From a virus: a stretch of 34,976 nucleotides of DNA. The notes below the pieces were generated by a model. The model did no database searches. It had not been told where the DNA came from and saw nothing but the letters and a program-made list of their open reading frames with translations. The stretch lies in the IMG/VR virus record IMGVR_UViG_3300035698_011040, positions 1 to 34,976 of that record, one strand, 5' to 3'. The translations under genes were made by a program, and so were the position numbers. Numbering within the stretch: the stretch's first letter is position 1; every line of letters starts with the position of its first letter. Below, piece after piece: positions 1 through 34,976 of the stretch.

Positions 1-266
1 TGGAAAAAATAAACTTCGATGGCTCTGGCTCTGGCTATGGCTATGGCTCTGGCGGCTCTGGCTCTGGCTCTGGCTATGGCGGCTGCGGCGATGGCGATGG
101 CTCTGGCTCTGGCCGTGGCGACGGCGATGGTGGAGGCTTTGGCTGTGGTGATGGCGATGGCAACGGCTCTGGCCGTGGTGATGGCGATGGTGGAGGCAAC
201 GGCAACGGCGATGGCTCTGGCTATGGAAATGGCTATGGCTATGGAAATGGCGATGGCGATGGCTAG
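1..266 (+). CDS. Glycine-dipeptide repeat protein, copy C (start crosses window edge)
   Basis: Alternate codons are glycine (GGC, sometimes GGA or GGT) and the codon between is mostly TCT, TAT, GAT, GAC, AAC or AAT, giving a chain of Gly with Ser, Tyr, Asp and Asn, plus a few Phe, Cys and Arg. The frame is open from base 3, and joining the window end to its start supplies ATG, then Glu-Lys-Ile-Asn-Phe-Asp-Gly. About 88 residues, stop TAG at 264-266. Its N-terminus differs from the METVDSG start of the other copies. The upstream GGTGG six bases before the ATG is a plausible ribosome site. No family recognised; it resembles silk-like or polyglycine low-complexity chains. That this frame is translated is an inference, since the other frames are open too. 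Confidence 0.55.
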   Translation, partial: EKINFDGSGSGYGYGSGGSGSGSGYGGCGDGDGSGSGRGDGDGGGFGCGDGDGNGSGRGDGDGGGNGNGDGSGYGNGYGYGNGDGDG

Positions 267-303: not shown

Positions 304-495
304 ATGGAAACAGTAGATTCTGGATATGACGATGTCTCTGGCTATGGCGATGGCTATGGCGATGGCTCTGGCTATGGTGGCGGATATGACTATGGCGATT
401 GCGATGGCGACGGCGATGGCTCTGGCTCTGGCGACGGCGATGGCTCTGGCTCTGGCTCTGGCGGTGGCGATGGCGATGGTGGCGGATATGGCTAG
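304..495 (+). CDS. Glycine-dipeptide repeat protein, copy D
   Basis: A 63-residue protein beginning METVDSGYDD and continuing as Gly alternating with Tyr, Asp, Ser and a few Cys. The start ATG lies in a block (ATGGAAACAGTAGATTCTGG) that is shared with copies A, B and E, which decides the start. It ends Gly-stop in the conserved tail GGCTAGCAAGCTTTAGAAC. The linker to the next copy is almost identical to the linker before this one. No Shine-Dalgarno site is obvious, so translation may be coupled or weak. Strongly biased composition, no enzymatic motif. Possible roles (structural fibre, adhesin, low-complexity binding protein) are guesses. Confidence 0.55.
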   Translation: METVDSGYDDVSGYGDGYGDGSGYGGGYDYGDCDGDGDGSGSGDGDGSGSGSGGGDGDGGGYG

Positions 496-532: not shown

Positions 533-808
533 ATGGAAACAGTAGATTCTGGCTATGGCGGAGGTTCTGGCTATGGCCATGGCTATTGCGATTGTTGTGG
601 CTTTGGCTTTGGCAACGGCTCTGGACATGGCGATTGCGATTGCGATGGCTATGGCGATGGCGATGGCGGAGGCGATGGCTCTGGCTCTGGCGGTGGCTCT
701 GGCTATGGAAATGGCTTTGGCGGTGGCTCTGGCTATGAAAATGGTGTCGGATATGGTGGCGGATATGGTGGCGGATATGGTGGCGGATACGGATCTGGCA
801 ACGGCTAG
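533..808 (+). CDS. Glycine-dipeptide repeat protein, copy E
   Basis: A 91-residue protein starting METVDSGYGGG, then Gly alternating with Ser, Tyr, Asp, Asn, Phe, His and Cys, and ending in a run of GGGYGGGYGGG type. It has the same start block as copies A, B and D and the same 3' tail (803-821). It is the last member of the array before the folded segment at 880-1081. A second frame (555-818) is also fully open and would give an Ala/Met/Leu-rich chain ending ASKL. The METVDSG frame is preferred because its start is conserved between copies. Confidence 0.55.
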   Translation: METVDSGYGGGSGYGHGYCDCCGFGFGNGSGHGDCDCDGYGDGDGGGDGSGSGGGSGYGNGFGGGSGYENGVGYGGGYGGGYGGGYGSGNG

Positions 809-10927: not shown

Positions 10928-11371
10928 ATGCGTAAGAAGAAAGTCGGTGAACTCACGAGTGATTTACTAGCTAGACCTAATCTGGATATTAAACAATCGC
11001 TTATGGACACCTCAAAAGAGATGCAAAAGCAGTACCTTCCAGAAATTGAAAAGTGTATTAAGACGCATGAAAAGCTGTGGAGCGAGCCGTTTTATGTCGT
11101 AGTTATCACAAAAAGAGAGCGTCTTATTGTAAACTCAATACGTCAATACTTTCTTGCTAGGCAAACTTTGCCTACTCCTGATCTTGACCAGACAGTTTTC
11201 AAATACACACCAGCTACAGGTGATTTAAAACATTTGTGGACGGTTCCCGATCATGGTAGCATCGATTACTTGATTAGAAACCGACATCTTGTCGTTAAAG
11301 CAGAACAACAGCTACTAGAATACTGCATGCTTTTCAGAAAGGGAAAGCTTGATGAAGTACATGGTGAATAG
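10928..11371 (+). CDS. Phage hypothetical protein, 147 residues
   Basis: Helix in the first third (SLMDTSKEMQKQYLPEIEKCI), a strand-rich middle (EPFYVVVITKRERL) and the PATGDLKHLWTVPD and NRHLVVKAEQQLLEYC segments. The WTVPD and final helix form a pattern seen in unnamed phage proteins placed near capsid genes. AAGGAG lies directly upstream of the ATG. Probably a small soluble protein; no enzymatic motif. Confidence 0.65.
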   Translation: MRKKKVGELTSDLLARPNLDIKQSLMDTSKEMQKQYLPEIEKCIKTHEKLWSEPFYVVVITKRERLIVNSIRQYFLARQTLPTPDLDQTVFKYTPATGDLKHLWTVPDHGSIDYLIRNRHLVVKAEQQLLEYCMLFRKGKLDEVHGE

Positions 11372-11436
11372 CTGTTGAGATTGACCAAATAGTTTTTATA
11401 TGGGAATATAAATTTTAATTCGCATATAGGAATGTC

Positions 11437-11739
11437 ATGGATTTAATCAGCAATATTTCAATAGTAAAAGAAATTTTAGAAGAAGACTACAGGTCAAGAG
11501 ATTGCGACTTGAGTCTATATTGCCGTGTCATAGTTCGTGATCTATCAGACGAGTTAAAAGATATGAACGCTATAAGGTTTATGTCTTTACTTGCCGATAA
11601 GAAGATGCGACACTTTGAAAGTGTTCGTCGTGTTCGTCAAAAACTTCAAGAAAAATGTCCTCAATTGCGTGGCGATTTATATAATAAGCGTCATGGTATG
11701 AAGAACTATGTCAAGAATCAATTGAGATTCGATTTCTAG
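11437..11739 (+). CDS. Phage hypothetical protein, 100 residues
   Basis: Helical, with the C-terminal pattern FESVRRVRQKLQEKCPQLRGDLYNKRH, which is typical of a small phage family (ES-RRARQK-QE--P-LRG). The basic helix suggests nucleic acid binding. TAGGAATGTC precedes the ATG. Ends with TAG, one of several genes showing that TAG is a real stop here. Last gene before the scaffold leader. Confidence 0.65.
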   Translation: MDLISNISIVKEILEEDYRSRDCDLSLYCRVIVRDLSDELKDMNAIRFMSLLADKKMRHFESVRRVRQKLQEKCPQLRGDLYNKRHGMKNYVKNQLRFDF

Positions 11740-11769
11740 CCTATGGCATCCTTCAATATTTAACAATTT

Positions 11770-23299: not shown

Positions 23300-25786
23300 A
23301 TGACTAAAAAAAGAGTCACTAAATCATACGGACTTTCTAGTCCTTTAGAAGATAATTTTCCTGCTCCAATTATAGCAGCTAGAGCACCTACCGTAGCAGA
23401 TGCAGGATATTCAAAAGGACAAGTTTGGATTGATACAGTTGGAGCTGCTGCATATACATTTATTGGCACTGCTGCAGGTGTTGGTGATTGGGATTCTACC
23501 TCTGTCGAGAACGCTTCAACTACTGTTATTGGTGTAACTCGTTTAGCGACAGTCGCTGAAAGCGTAGCTGGAATAGCGGTAAATATTGCAAATACTCCTG
23601 CTGGATTAGCAGCCGTAGCTATCGCAGGAGCACCTAACTGGTCTGAAACTGTATCAGGTATCGGACAACTATCGACCTTAGCTGAAGCTGTCGCTTCTGT
23701 AAATGACACAACTGCTATGACACCATTAAAAGTAGCTGGTGTATTTGCCGCTCCTCCTGCTCTTGGAAGTGGAACTCCTGCTGCCGGTGCATTCACGACT
23801 ATAAGCACTACAGGTCTTGCAAGTCTTGGTGCTTCTGCTACAATTGTAACAGGTGCTGTAGCTTTAAGTCTTGGTGCTGATGCTGGTGCGGGTGCTATCA
23901 ATATGGGAACAGGAGCTGCTGCTCGTGTCATCACTCTTGGTAATGTTACAGGAGCTACAGGAATTGTTCTAAATTCTGGTACTGCCGGTGTTGCTATTAA
24001 TACAACCGGTGCTGGTGATGTCACAGTAACTTCAGCCGATACGGTTATAGTCGATTGTGCTGGTGTCTTAGAGCTTAATAGTTCTGCTGGTATTATCGGT
24101 ATTGGTAATGATGCTGTTGCTCAAAATATTAATATAGGAACTGGTGCTGCTGCACGAACGATTACTATCGGTAATACTTCTGGTGCTAGTGCATTGGCCT
24201 TAGTATCTGGAACAGGTGCTATTGATGTGGGTGTTGCGATTGCTCATACAATTACAATCGGTAATGTCACAGGAGCCACTGCTTTAGTTCTTAATGTAGG
24301 AACCGGAAACTTCAATCTTGAAGGTGCTGTTGCTTCTACATACAACATTTCTGCTGCAGGAGCTAATACTGGAACGATAACAATCGGAGCCGGTACTGGT
24401 GCTCAAACGCTTAATTTAATGACTGGTGGAACGGCTGTTAAGACAGTTAATATTGCTACTGGTGCTATTGGCAATATCGTAACTATCGGCAGTGTTACTG
24501 CTGCTGCTTCTCTTGATATGCTTGTCGGAACAGGAAACTTTACTTTAGAAGGTAATGTTGCTTCTACTTATACGATTTCAGGTACTGGTGCCAACACAGG
24601 TCTTATTTCAATAGGAGCTGGAACTGGTGCACAACAACTTGACTTGATGACAGGTGCAGTAGGAGTCAAAACTGTTAATATAGCCACTGGTGCAATAGGT
24701 AATATTGTTACTATTGGTAGTGTTACTGCTGCTGCTTCAATGTCTTTACTTGTAGGAACAGGTAACTTCACCCTAGAGGGTGATGTAGCATCAACTTACG
24801 ATATTTCTTCTACTGGCATTAATACTGGTACTGTAACTATAGCTTCAGGAACAGGTGCTCGTACAATTGAGATCGGAGGAGGTGGTACAGGTGCTAAAAC
24901 TATCAACGTTGGTGCTGCTGCTTCTGCTGATCTTATCACGATTGGCGATGCTACTGGTGCCGGAAGTCTTGATCTTGTTTGCGGTACAGGCAACTTCACA
25001 TTAGAAGGTAATGTTGCTACAACTTATACCATTTCTGGAACAGGAGCTAACACAGGTCTTATTTCAATAGGAGCTGGAACTGGTGCACAAACTCTTAACC
25101 TTATGACAGGTGGAACAGGAGTTAAAACCGTTAACGTCGGAACCGGAGCTATTGGTAATATTATCACTATTGGTAGCGTTACTGCTGCTGCTTCAATGTC
25201 TTTACTTGTAGGTACTGGCAATTTCTCTCTTGAGGGTGATGTCGCTTCTACTTATGCAATATCAAACACTGGTATAAATACTGGTCAAGTTGATTTAGCT
25301 GGTGGAACTGGTGCTAGAACTATCAATATCGGTGGTGGAGGAACAGGTGTCAAAACTATCAATATTGGTGCTGGTGCATCTGCTGATATTATCACCATTG
25401 GTGATGCTACAGGAGCAGGAAGCACAGACGTTATTGCTGGAACAGGAGGTCTTACTCTTAATGCTGCTGGTATTGTTGATATGGTACCGGTAACAGCAAG
25501 TAATGCTGGTGTTGCTGCTACAATCGATGCTAATGTCGGTGTAAGCACTCATACAGGTCAGGTAACTGCTGCTGCTGCTTCACAGGTATTCACTATTACA
25601 AACAGCGTTTGTACTGTTGGTAGTGCTATCCTAGTTAGTGCTGCGAATTTAGGAGCCAATGACGCTCAGATGACTATAACTCGTGTCACACCTGCTGCTG
25701 GTAGCTTTACAGTGACGCTTACCAACAATGGTGCTGCTGCACTTAATGGTGATGTTTTGATTTCATTTTGGATCATAGCAGCGTAA
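23300..25786 (+). CDS. Large repetitive tail fibre
   Basis: 828 residues. N-terminal module (residues 1-75) with AARAPTVADAGYSKGQVWIDT, probably the virion-binding part, then a long Gly/Thr/Ile/Val repeat region (motifs such as GAGTGAQTLNLMTGG and AIGNIVTIGSVTAAAS) that should form a beta-helical or beta-prism shaft. Residues 337-716 are five 76-residue blocks. The C-terminal tip (about residues 720-828, ASNAGVAATIDANVGVSTHTGQ) is a different beta domain likely to contact the host. AGGAGGGTAAG precedes the ATG. A terminator follows. Confidence 0.75.
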   Translation: MTKKRVTKSYGLSSPLEDNFPAPIIAARAPTVADAGYSKGQVWIDTVGAAAYTFIGTAAGVGDWDSTSVENASTTVIGVTRLATVAESVAGIAVNIANTPAGLAAVAIAGAPNWSETVSGIGQLSTLAEAVASVNDTTAMTPLKVAGVFAAPPALGSGTPAAGAFTTISTTGLASLGASATIVTGAVALSLGADAGAGAINMGTGAAARVITLGNVTGATGIVLNSGTAGVAINTTGAGDVTVTSADTVIVDCAGVLELNSSAGIIGIGNDAVAQNINIGTGAAARTITIGNTSGASALALVSGTGAIDVGVAIAHTITIGNVTGATALVLNVGTGNFNLEGAVASTYNISAAGANTGTITIGAGTGAQTLNLMTGGTAVKTVNIATGAIGNIVTIGSVTAAASLDMLVGTGNFTLEGNVASTYTISGTGANTGLISIGAGTGAQQLDLMTGAVGVKTVNIATGAIGNIVTIGSVTAAASMSLLVGTGNFTLEGDVASTYDISSTGINTGTVTIASGTGARTIEIGGGGTGAKTINVGAAASADLITIGDATGAGSLDLVCGTGNFTLEGNVATTYTISGTGANTGLISIGAGTGAQTLNLMTGGTGVKTVNVGTGAIGNIITIGSVTAAASMSLLVGTGNFSLEGDVASTYAISNTGINTGQVDLAGGTGARTINIGGGGTGVKTINIGAGASADIITIGDATGAGSTDVIAGTGGLTLNAAGIVDMVPVTASNAGVAATIDANVGVSTHTGQVTAAAASQVFTITNSVCTVGSAILVSAANLGANDAQMTITRVTPAAGSFTVTLTNNGAAALNGDVLISFWIIAA
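24308..25447 (+). repeat. Five tandem 228-base repeats in the fibre gene
   Basis: Blocks at 24308-24535, 24536-24763, 24764-24991, 24992-25219 and 25220-25447, each 76 codons and beginning Asn-Phe-x-Leu-Glu-Gly. Blocks 1, 2 and 4 are type A (GANTGxIxIGAGTGAQ, ITIGSVTAAAS) and 3 and 5 are type B (GINTGxVxxAxGTGARTI, ITIGDATGAGS). The order A-A-B-A-B indicates duplication of an A-B pair. Confidence 0.85.
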
Positions 25787-34119: not shown

Positions 34120-34467
34120 ATGAAAAACATAATTGAAATTGATGGAATCAAATATCAGGCTATTAATACGAACGAAGACGGTCTCATGGATTACGTTATA
34201 GTGCGAACGTATTCGGCTGGCGTTTTTGCAGGATATCTGTGTGAAAAAACAGGCAAGGAAGTCACTTTGAATAACGCAAGACGACTCTGGTATTGGGAAG
34301 GTGCCTCTTCATTGTCACAACTTGCAATGGAAGGGGTGAAAAAGCCAGACAAATGCAAATTTCCCTGTACAGTTGATCGAGTCACTTTAACTGAAGCTAT
34401 AGAAATTATTCCTTGTACAGAAGAAGCAAGAAAGATAATTGAAGAAGTTCCAGTATGGAAACAGTAG
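34120..34467 (+). CDS. DUF6948-like phage protein, 115 residues
   Basis: ATG 34120 chosen because AAAGGAACGAG stands before it. YVIVRTYSAGVFAGYLCEKTG, ARRLWYWEGASSLSQLA, KFPCTVDRVTLTEAIEI and the ending EEVPVWKQ are the known pattern of this phage family (function unknown, beta-rich). The final codons lie in the sequence ATGGAAACAGTAG, which is also the start of the first glycine-repeat gene, so the two genes overlap by 13 bases. Confidence 0.8.
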   Translation: MKNIIEIDGIKYQAINTNEDGLMDYVIVRTYSAGVFAGYLCEKTGKEVTLNNARRLWYWEGASSLSQLAMEGVKKPDKCKFPCTVDRVTLTEAIEIIPCTEEARKIIEEVPVWKQ

Positions 34468-34640
34468 ATTCTGGCTATGGCGACGGCTATGGCGATGGCG
34501 ATGGTGGAGGCAACGGCAACGGCAACGGCTATGGCTATGGAGATGGCTATGGCGGAGGCGGTGGCGATGGTGGAGGCAACGGCAACGGCTATGGCTATGG
34601 AGATGGCTATGGTGGCGGATACGGATCTGGCAATGGCTAG
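34455..34640 (+). CDS. Glycine-dipeptide repeat protein, copy A
   Basis: 61 residues from METVDSGYGDG, then Gly alternating with Asp, Tyr, Asn and Ser, ending in the conserved tail. The start overlaps the end of the DUF6948-like gene in another frame. This copy probably shows how the array arose: the block ATGGAAACAGTAG at the 3' end of the host-like gene was duplicated with the repeat gene. No clear ribosome site; coupling to the upstream gene is possible. Confidence 0.55.
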   Translation: METVDSGYGDGYGDGDGGGNGNGNGYGYGDGYGGGGGDGGGNGNGYGYGDGYGGGYGSGNG

Positions 34641-34677
34641 CAAGCTTTAGAACCACGAGAAAATGGATGGTTTAAGT

Positions 34678-34956
34678 ATGGAAACAGTAGATCCTGGCTC
34701 TGGCGATGGAGATGGCGACGGCTATGGCGACGGCTATGGCGATGGCGATGGCTATGGAAATGGCTATGGAAATGGCTATGTAAATGGCTATGGAAATGGC
34801 TATGGCTATGGCTATGGAAATGGCGATGGCTGTGGCTATGGCTATGGAAATGGCTATGGCTATGGAAATGGCTCTGGCTCTGGCTCTGGCGATGGCGATG
34901 GCTCTGGCGATGGCTCTGGCTCTGGCTATGGCTATGGCTCTGGCTCTGGCTCTTAA
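34678..34956 (+). CDS. Glycine-dipeptide repeat protein, copy B
   Basis: 92 residues starting METVDPGSGDG, then Gly with Asp, Tyr, Asn and Ser. An in-frame ATG at 34663 exists but the METVD block is the conserved one. It ends with TAA instead of the GGCTAGCAAGCTT tail, and the linker to copy C differs from the other linkers. Copy C follows across the window ends. Gly-Tyr-Gly-Asn stretches are the most regular of the array. Confidence 0.55.
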   Translation: METVDPGSGDGDGDGYGDGYGDGDGYGNGYGNGYVNGYGNGYGYGYGNGDGCGYGYGNGYGYGNGSGSGSGDGDGSGDGSGSGYGYGSGSGS

Positions 34957-34976
34957 AGTATCGGGGTGGTCAGAAA

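Follow-up and report, generated by a model that had tools for sequence, protein, structure and literature searches.

Sm-type proteins form nucleic-acid-binding rings, and several of them (SmD1, SmD3 and LSm4) carry Gly-rich tails that, in these eukaryotic proteins, are made of Gly-Arg and encoded in cis. The phage locus described here resembles them in combining a predicted Sm-like core, encoded by a gene of the Pfam family DUF6948, with a glycine-dipeptide repeat (Gly-X), and in two phages the two parts are naturally fused in cis. It differs from them in its X residues (Ser, Tyr, Asp or Asn, with Arg almost absent), in that a gene of its own mostly encodes the tail, and in that sequence homology to LSm was not detected with hhalign. 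The Hfq protein of Acinetobacter carries GGFGGQ repeats whose number matters for function (PMC11617691), and it is likewise an Sm core with a repeated Gly/aromatic disordered tail. Unlike the phage pair, Hfq is a host gene with its tail in cis and with a different repeat, and no hypervariable array was described for it. Fast-evolving, in-frame tandem repeats that encode disordered protein are found on the extrachromosomal Borgs; according to that report (PMC9879509), the repeats arise independently in Borg genes, whereas in the phages a single repeat type goes with a single partner family. Our literature searches (subscription journals lay outside them) returned nothing matching the DUF6948/Gly-X pair and no paper naming DUF6948, and the entry for Pfam family PF22253 records neither a Gly-X partner nor a Sm-like fold and assigns no function. 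Since no described system has such an architecture, we count the pair as new as a system; by analogy, it may work like the Sm proteins with glycine-dipeptide tails.

The window, that is, the whole stretch of DNA analysed, is a virus record of 34,976 bases with terminase, portal, capsid, RecE and Erf genes (PHROGs). Gly stands at about every second residue in five of its ORFs, of 61-92 aa (Table 1), and the five Gly-alternating genes of an earlier sequence-only reading were thus recovered, one of them readable only if the ends of the record join. The METVDSG or METVDPG start that this reading gave for four genes was found as well, three times in the first form and once in the second, and copies 1, 2, 4 and 5 have the start ATGGAAACAGTAGAT in common. 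It had also listed an identical 3' tail in four genes: the tail TAGCAAGCTTTAGAAC is indeed identical after copies 1, 3, 4 and 5, but the word slightly overstates the case, as 1-2 bases differ beyond it. The tail of copy 2 is another sequence. A spacer of the kind found between copies 1 and 2 also follows copies 3 and 4. From the near-identical tails and the common start it follows that duplication gave rise to the array and took in the overlap region as well. The codon pattern reported earlier, with variable codons differing almost only at bases 1 and 2 and Gly codons kept, agrees with our counts, base 3 of the X codons being 144 T, 27 C and 2 A and the Gly codons being GGC in 144 of 192.

Copy 3 can be read only once base 34976 is connected with base 1, since the record is classed as 'linear' and is without a terminal repeat. 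Base 34976 and bases 1-2 together make an ATG, and the resulting MEKIN start resembles those of two relatives (L084 and L126). Of 96 related contigs, 13 end at most 250 nt downstream of DUF6948, so the Gly-X repeats break assemblies, and for this reason the window likely ends within the array. The array had been described as spanning the genome junction; an ORF can be read there if the ends join, but the junction is probably just an assembly stop inside the repeats. The copy number in the window is provisional, and mis-assembly may have affected it. Elsewhere in the window, an 828-aa ORF (23300-25786) has four internal repeats of ~76 aa (228-nt period) and is possibly a fibre or adhesin, and a 30-nt tandem repeat (1732-1818) lies within the 326-aa ORF at 1159-2139. 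When this last, replication-like gene was used as a search anchor, no relatives were found.

Table 1. Positions of the DUF6948 gene and the Gly-X array in the window, and loci with the gut C-terminal domain.
Feature	Position or locus	Strand	Description
DUF6948 gene	34120..34467	+	115 aa; Pfam PF22253, E 1.2e-34; predicted Sm-like small beta-barrel
13-base overlap	34455..34467	+	ATG of copy 1 inside the last DUF6948 codons (VPVWKQ*)
Gly-X copy 1	34455..34640	+	61 aa, METVDSG start
Spacer between copies 1 and 2	34638..34689	+	contains both the recurring tail TAGCAAGCTTTAGAAC and the recurring start ATGGAAACAGTAGAT
Gly-X copy 2	34678..34956	+	92 aa, METVDPG start; 5 aa longer if read from the upstream ATG at 34663
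Gly-X copy 3	34976 then 1..266, if ends join	+	88 aa in all, MEKINFDG start
Gly-X copy 4	304..495	+	63 aa, METVDSG start
Gly-X copy 5	533..808	+	91 aa, METVDSG start
Gly-X fused to gut C-terminal domain	L207, L211, L213, L216, L219, L227, L230, L233-L238, others		

The gene directly upstream of copy 1, which the sequence-only reading had passed over, belongs to DUF6948, with a score of 118.7 bits against a curated cut-off of 27 bits. Where the two genes overlap, one frame of GTATGGAAACAGTAG encodes VWKQ and the stop, and the other opens with METVD. With DUF6948 as bait, 96 IMG/VR loci were examined, 87 of them with at least 150 nt after the stop. A Gly-X ORF follows DUF6948 in 84 of these 87, and its start, an ATG, GTG or TTG, lies at exactly -13 in 66 IMG/VR loci. 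Two of the three exceptions have Gly-X upstream (L095) or as an in-frame fusion (L096), so that only L140 is without it. The exact start pattern ATGGAAACAGTAGATYCTGG had no match in viral contigs. GTDB genomes contained 57 DUF6948 loci, with Gly-X in 42 of the 46 that had room for it and the same 13-base overlap in 33. The titles of these records, which are metagenome bins with tentative host names, list Gracilibacteria, Chlamydiae relatives, Acidobacteria, Cloacimonadota, Planctomycetes, Pseudomonadota, Bacteroidota, Clostridia, cyanobacteria and archaeal bins, and the pair is also present in named cultured phages of Chlorobiaceae, Iodobacter, Pectobacterium and Vibrio. At the DUF6948 loci, 161 of 164 Gly-X runs of at least 9 units lie no more than 1.2 kb from the DUF6948 stop. 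The same scan found no such run in 1.0 Mb around capsid-gene relatives of the window phage, which excludes a chance origin of the Gly-X ORFs. A programmed frameshift fusing the two products was also considered; it is disfavoured because the overlap always gives ATG, GTG or TTG, and also by loci with a separate ATG 1-14 bases past the DUF6948 stop.

The association was also found from the other side. A reverse search was started from Gly-X DNA without DUF6948 and gave, among the matches listed, 47 loci with enough upstream sequence. DUF6948 (34 loci) or a divergent relative (8 loci) stood directly upstream in 42 of these 47 listed loci, the model for the 8 divergent relatives having been built partly from loci that it then counts. 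The divergent relatives have the consensus VVVDRGWIFAGDV or VVLDRGW. Match 4 of DUF6948 in the BFVD structure database is a Rheinheimera phage protein of 16% identity, which is itself followed by a Gly-X gene, and this protein has a homologue in the divergent group at 50% identity; by predicted structure, the divergent group is thus tied to DUF6948 independently. DUF6948 matched at least 568 viral contigs, and it was found in 2 of 296 sampled Bacteroidota and 1 of 299 sampled Pseudomonadota genomes, totals that include the sample's centre genome. From its rarity in the sampled bacterial genomes we take it to be mainly a virus family. Among 40 records of capsid relatives, none had a matching Gly-X stretch and a single one matched DUF6948, weakly and below the threshold. 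The cassette thus does not track the capsid lineage of the window phage. DUF6948 and Gly-X are a widespread two-gene unit in phages of many bacterial phyla.

The length of the Gly-X gene shifts by units of 6 bases, and it does so faster than the adjoining genes change. Three variants were compared among 115 records of cultured Rheinheimera phages: their Sm-like gene has 0-1 changes in 315 bases, the two downstream genes are identical (489 bases), and the Gly-X gene lying between them has 1-13 substitutions as well as 1-5 indels, the length of each indel being a multiple of 6 bases. In IMG/VR, too, near-identical loci differ in Gly-X (L129 from L143 and L134), and separate tandem Gly-X arrays are present in L083, L093, L094, L250 and L294. 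The sequence-only reading had proposed an expanding gene family that changes by recombination or slippage. Gain and loss of 6-base units beside near-identical neighbours directly support unit-wise change of length and so the idea of slippage, and tandem arrays recur elsewhere; a gene family it is, but not a stand-alone one, the array being the second half of the conserved DUF6948 pair. Identical copies in fixed number, named at the time as the contrary outcome, were not what relatives contained.

Two of the tandem arrays can be described further. Five Gly-X ORFs at L294:1719-3000 have identical ends, MGLKAFLKFG at the N-terminus and EPNLTSAGATVVEE at the C-terminus; they follow a PcfJ-like ORF, DUF6948 is not immediately upstream, and this is an independent array of the same kind. 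Three tandem ORFs of the form MNIKISRG-(GX)n stand at L250:1253-2130, where no DUF6948-like gene was found upstream.

As judged from codons and composition, the Gly-X gene is under protein-level selection. In 132 distinct Gly-X proteins, Ser makes up 34% of the X residues, Tyr 28%, Asp 22%, Asn 6% and Phe 3%, and Ala was observed 28 times at X against 304 expected from the base frequencies per codon position, a tenfold depletion. GC3 of the X codons tracks genome GC (0.30 below 40% GC, 0.96 above 60%), and in the paired loci the ATG-led frame is the Gly frame. The X residues are periodic at even lags: the value is 0.302 at lag 1, where shuffling gives 0.356, and 0.407 at lag 2. Gly-X is fused in frame to the C-terminus of DUF6948 in two phages (L096 and L273), and in loci of gut Bacteroidota and Clostridia it is fused to a conserved C-terminal domain (FAHG... 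WHHxLTGSC). The model of this gut-phage domain is confident (pLDDT 90); the domain had no match in Pfam or NCBIfam, and a fold search against the PDB gave no credible match. Matches of Gly-X proteins to Pfam TrAA12 were mostly below the cut-off and were taken as low-complexity artefacts. Gly-X tails also occur on another small N-terminal domain in L268, L287 and L322 (of the DLIAAGACSDGV type in L287 and L322), and those of L322 and L268 stand behind DUF6948. Close downstream of the Gly-X gene in L098 there is a 222-aa ORF (11097-11765) with repeats of the Cys-x-Gly-Cys type (CRGCRGCDGCDSC).

The AlphaFold model of the DUF6948 protein has a pLDDT of 87. Its top 50 Foldseek matches in the PDB are all Sm/LSm chains, with probabilities of 0.96-1.00, E-values of 5e-3 to 2e-2 and TM-scores, normalised to the query length, of 0.39-0.50. 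A hhalign comparison of DUF6948 with a hand-made LSm alignment gave a probability of 3.5% (p 0.013), with the best alignment covering the Sm1 segment, and a DUF6948 sequence search against the PDB returned nothing. Neither the Pfam LSM model PF01423 nor the Hfq model PF17209 matched in the window record; the Hfq model does match in 7 of 14 control genomes. Because the E-values are marginal and homology is unconfirmed by sequence methods, DUF6948 is termed Sm-like here by predicted fold only.

We tentatively read the array as the expanded second half of a two-gene unit in which a nucleic-acid-binding Sm-like ring would be joined by a disordered Gly-X tail in trans, and we give this reading somewhat less than an even chance. 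DUF6948 would fold as a Sm-like barrel and assemble into a ring, which would bind phage or host nucleic acid, probably RNA. Through translational coupling, the Gly-X protein would be produced where DUF6948 is, and it would bind the ring in trans as a tail that is disordered and rich in Tyr. The two would build a ribonucleoprotein assembly or condensate in the early replication and recombination phase of infection, and extra copies and slippage would tune the length and number of the tails, not their precise sequence. A tail in trans is the most economical reading because several Sm-type proteins carry Gly-rich tails. The recurring neighbours of the pair are mostly Sak4, RecE, RecT, Erf, exonuclease and DnaB genes; these ssDNA-annealing, exonuclease and DnaB genes put the pair in the vicinity of genes for replication and recombination. 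Ring formation, nucleic-acid binding, binding of Gly-X to DUF6948 and condensation are what we infer at the level of a model, and the overlap could also be simple translational coupling of two proteins that do not physically interact. That tailed phages of many phyla use one two-protein ribonucleoprotein system, a Sm-like ring with a separately encoded (Gly-X)n partner of fast-changing length, tuned by slippage and duplication, that builds a condensate or ribonucleoprotein, we hold to be doubtful.

The first rival to the trans-tail reading is a hypervariable decoy or counter-defence protein, with Gly-X targeting a host factor such as a protease or defence sensor, DUF6948 acting as carrier or regulator, and repeat length recording an arms race. 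We consider it rather unlikely. The fast change of length by 6-base units in isolated phages whose adjoining genes stay the same, the independent and repeated origin of tandem arrays, the mostly viral distribution of DUF6948 and the extensions that vary at both termini (the C-terminal domain of gut phages, for instance) would all suit such a role; the composition at X is, however, very uniform across phyla, which is unusual for a diversifying recognition surface, and PADLOC gave no match.

Less probable is a structural or adhesive low-complexity protein, a silk-like beta-sheet or matrix that is virion-borne or exported, with DUF6948 as its chaperone. Silk and plant glycine-rich proteins are similar in their strict alternation of Gly with small polar and aromatic residues, and this likeness and the even-lag periodicity of X fit the proposal. 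We nevertheless think it improbable, as the genes that recur beside the pair mostly serve recombination and replication and not the virion, and no export signal was noticed in the proteins read. Small Gly-rich peptides beside a small partner also resemble precursor/recognition-element pairs, and a modified natural product precursor, with DUF6948 as leader-binding or maturation partner, would agree with short variable peptides that have fixed starts; it is nonetheless very improbable, because a recurrent modifying enzyme is absent among the neighbours and only two genes are common to hundreds of viral loci. An incidental frame on a hexamer array that serves as a replication, recombination or packaging site would account for the hexamer repeats and for the contigs that often end there, but it is hardly credible and was rejected, already largely refuted by the codon evidence (the ATG-led frame, GC3 and Ala depletion) and by the in-frame fusions to DUF6948 and to the conserved C-terminal domain.

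The components of the pair are a Pfam family of unassigned function and unannotated low-complexity ORFs, and nearly all loci examined carry the pair in a family whose relatives reach those 568 or more viral contigs. If the Sm-like reading of DUF6948 is true, the pair would be a viral counterpart of the Sm proteins with glycine-dipeptide tails, split over two genes, and the effect of repeat length in a low-complexity tail could then be asked through natural variants in near-identical isolated phages.
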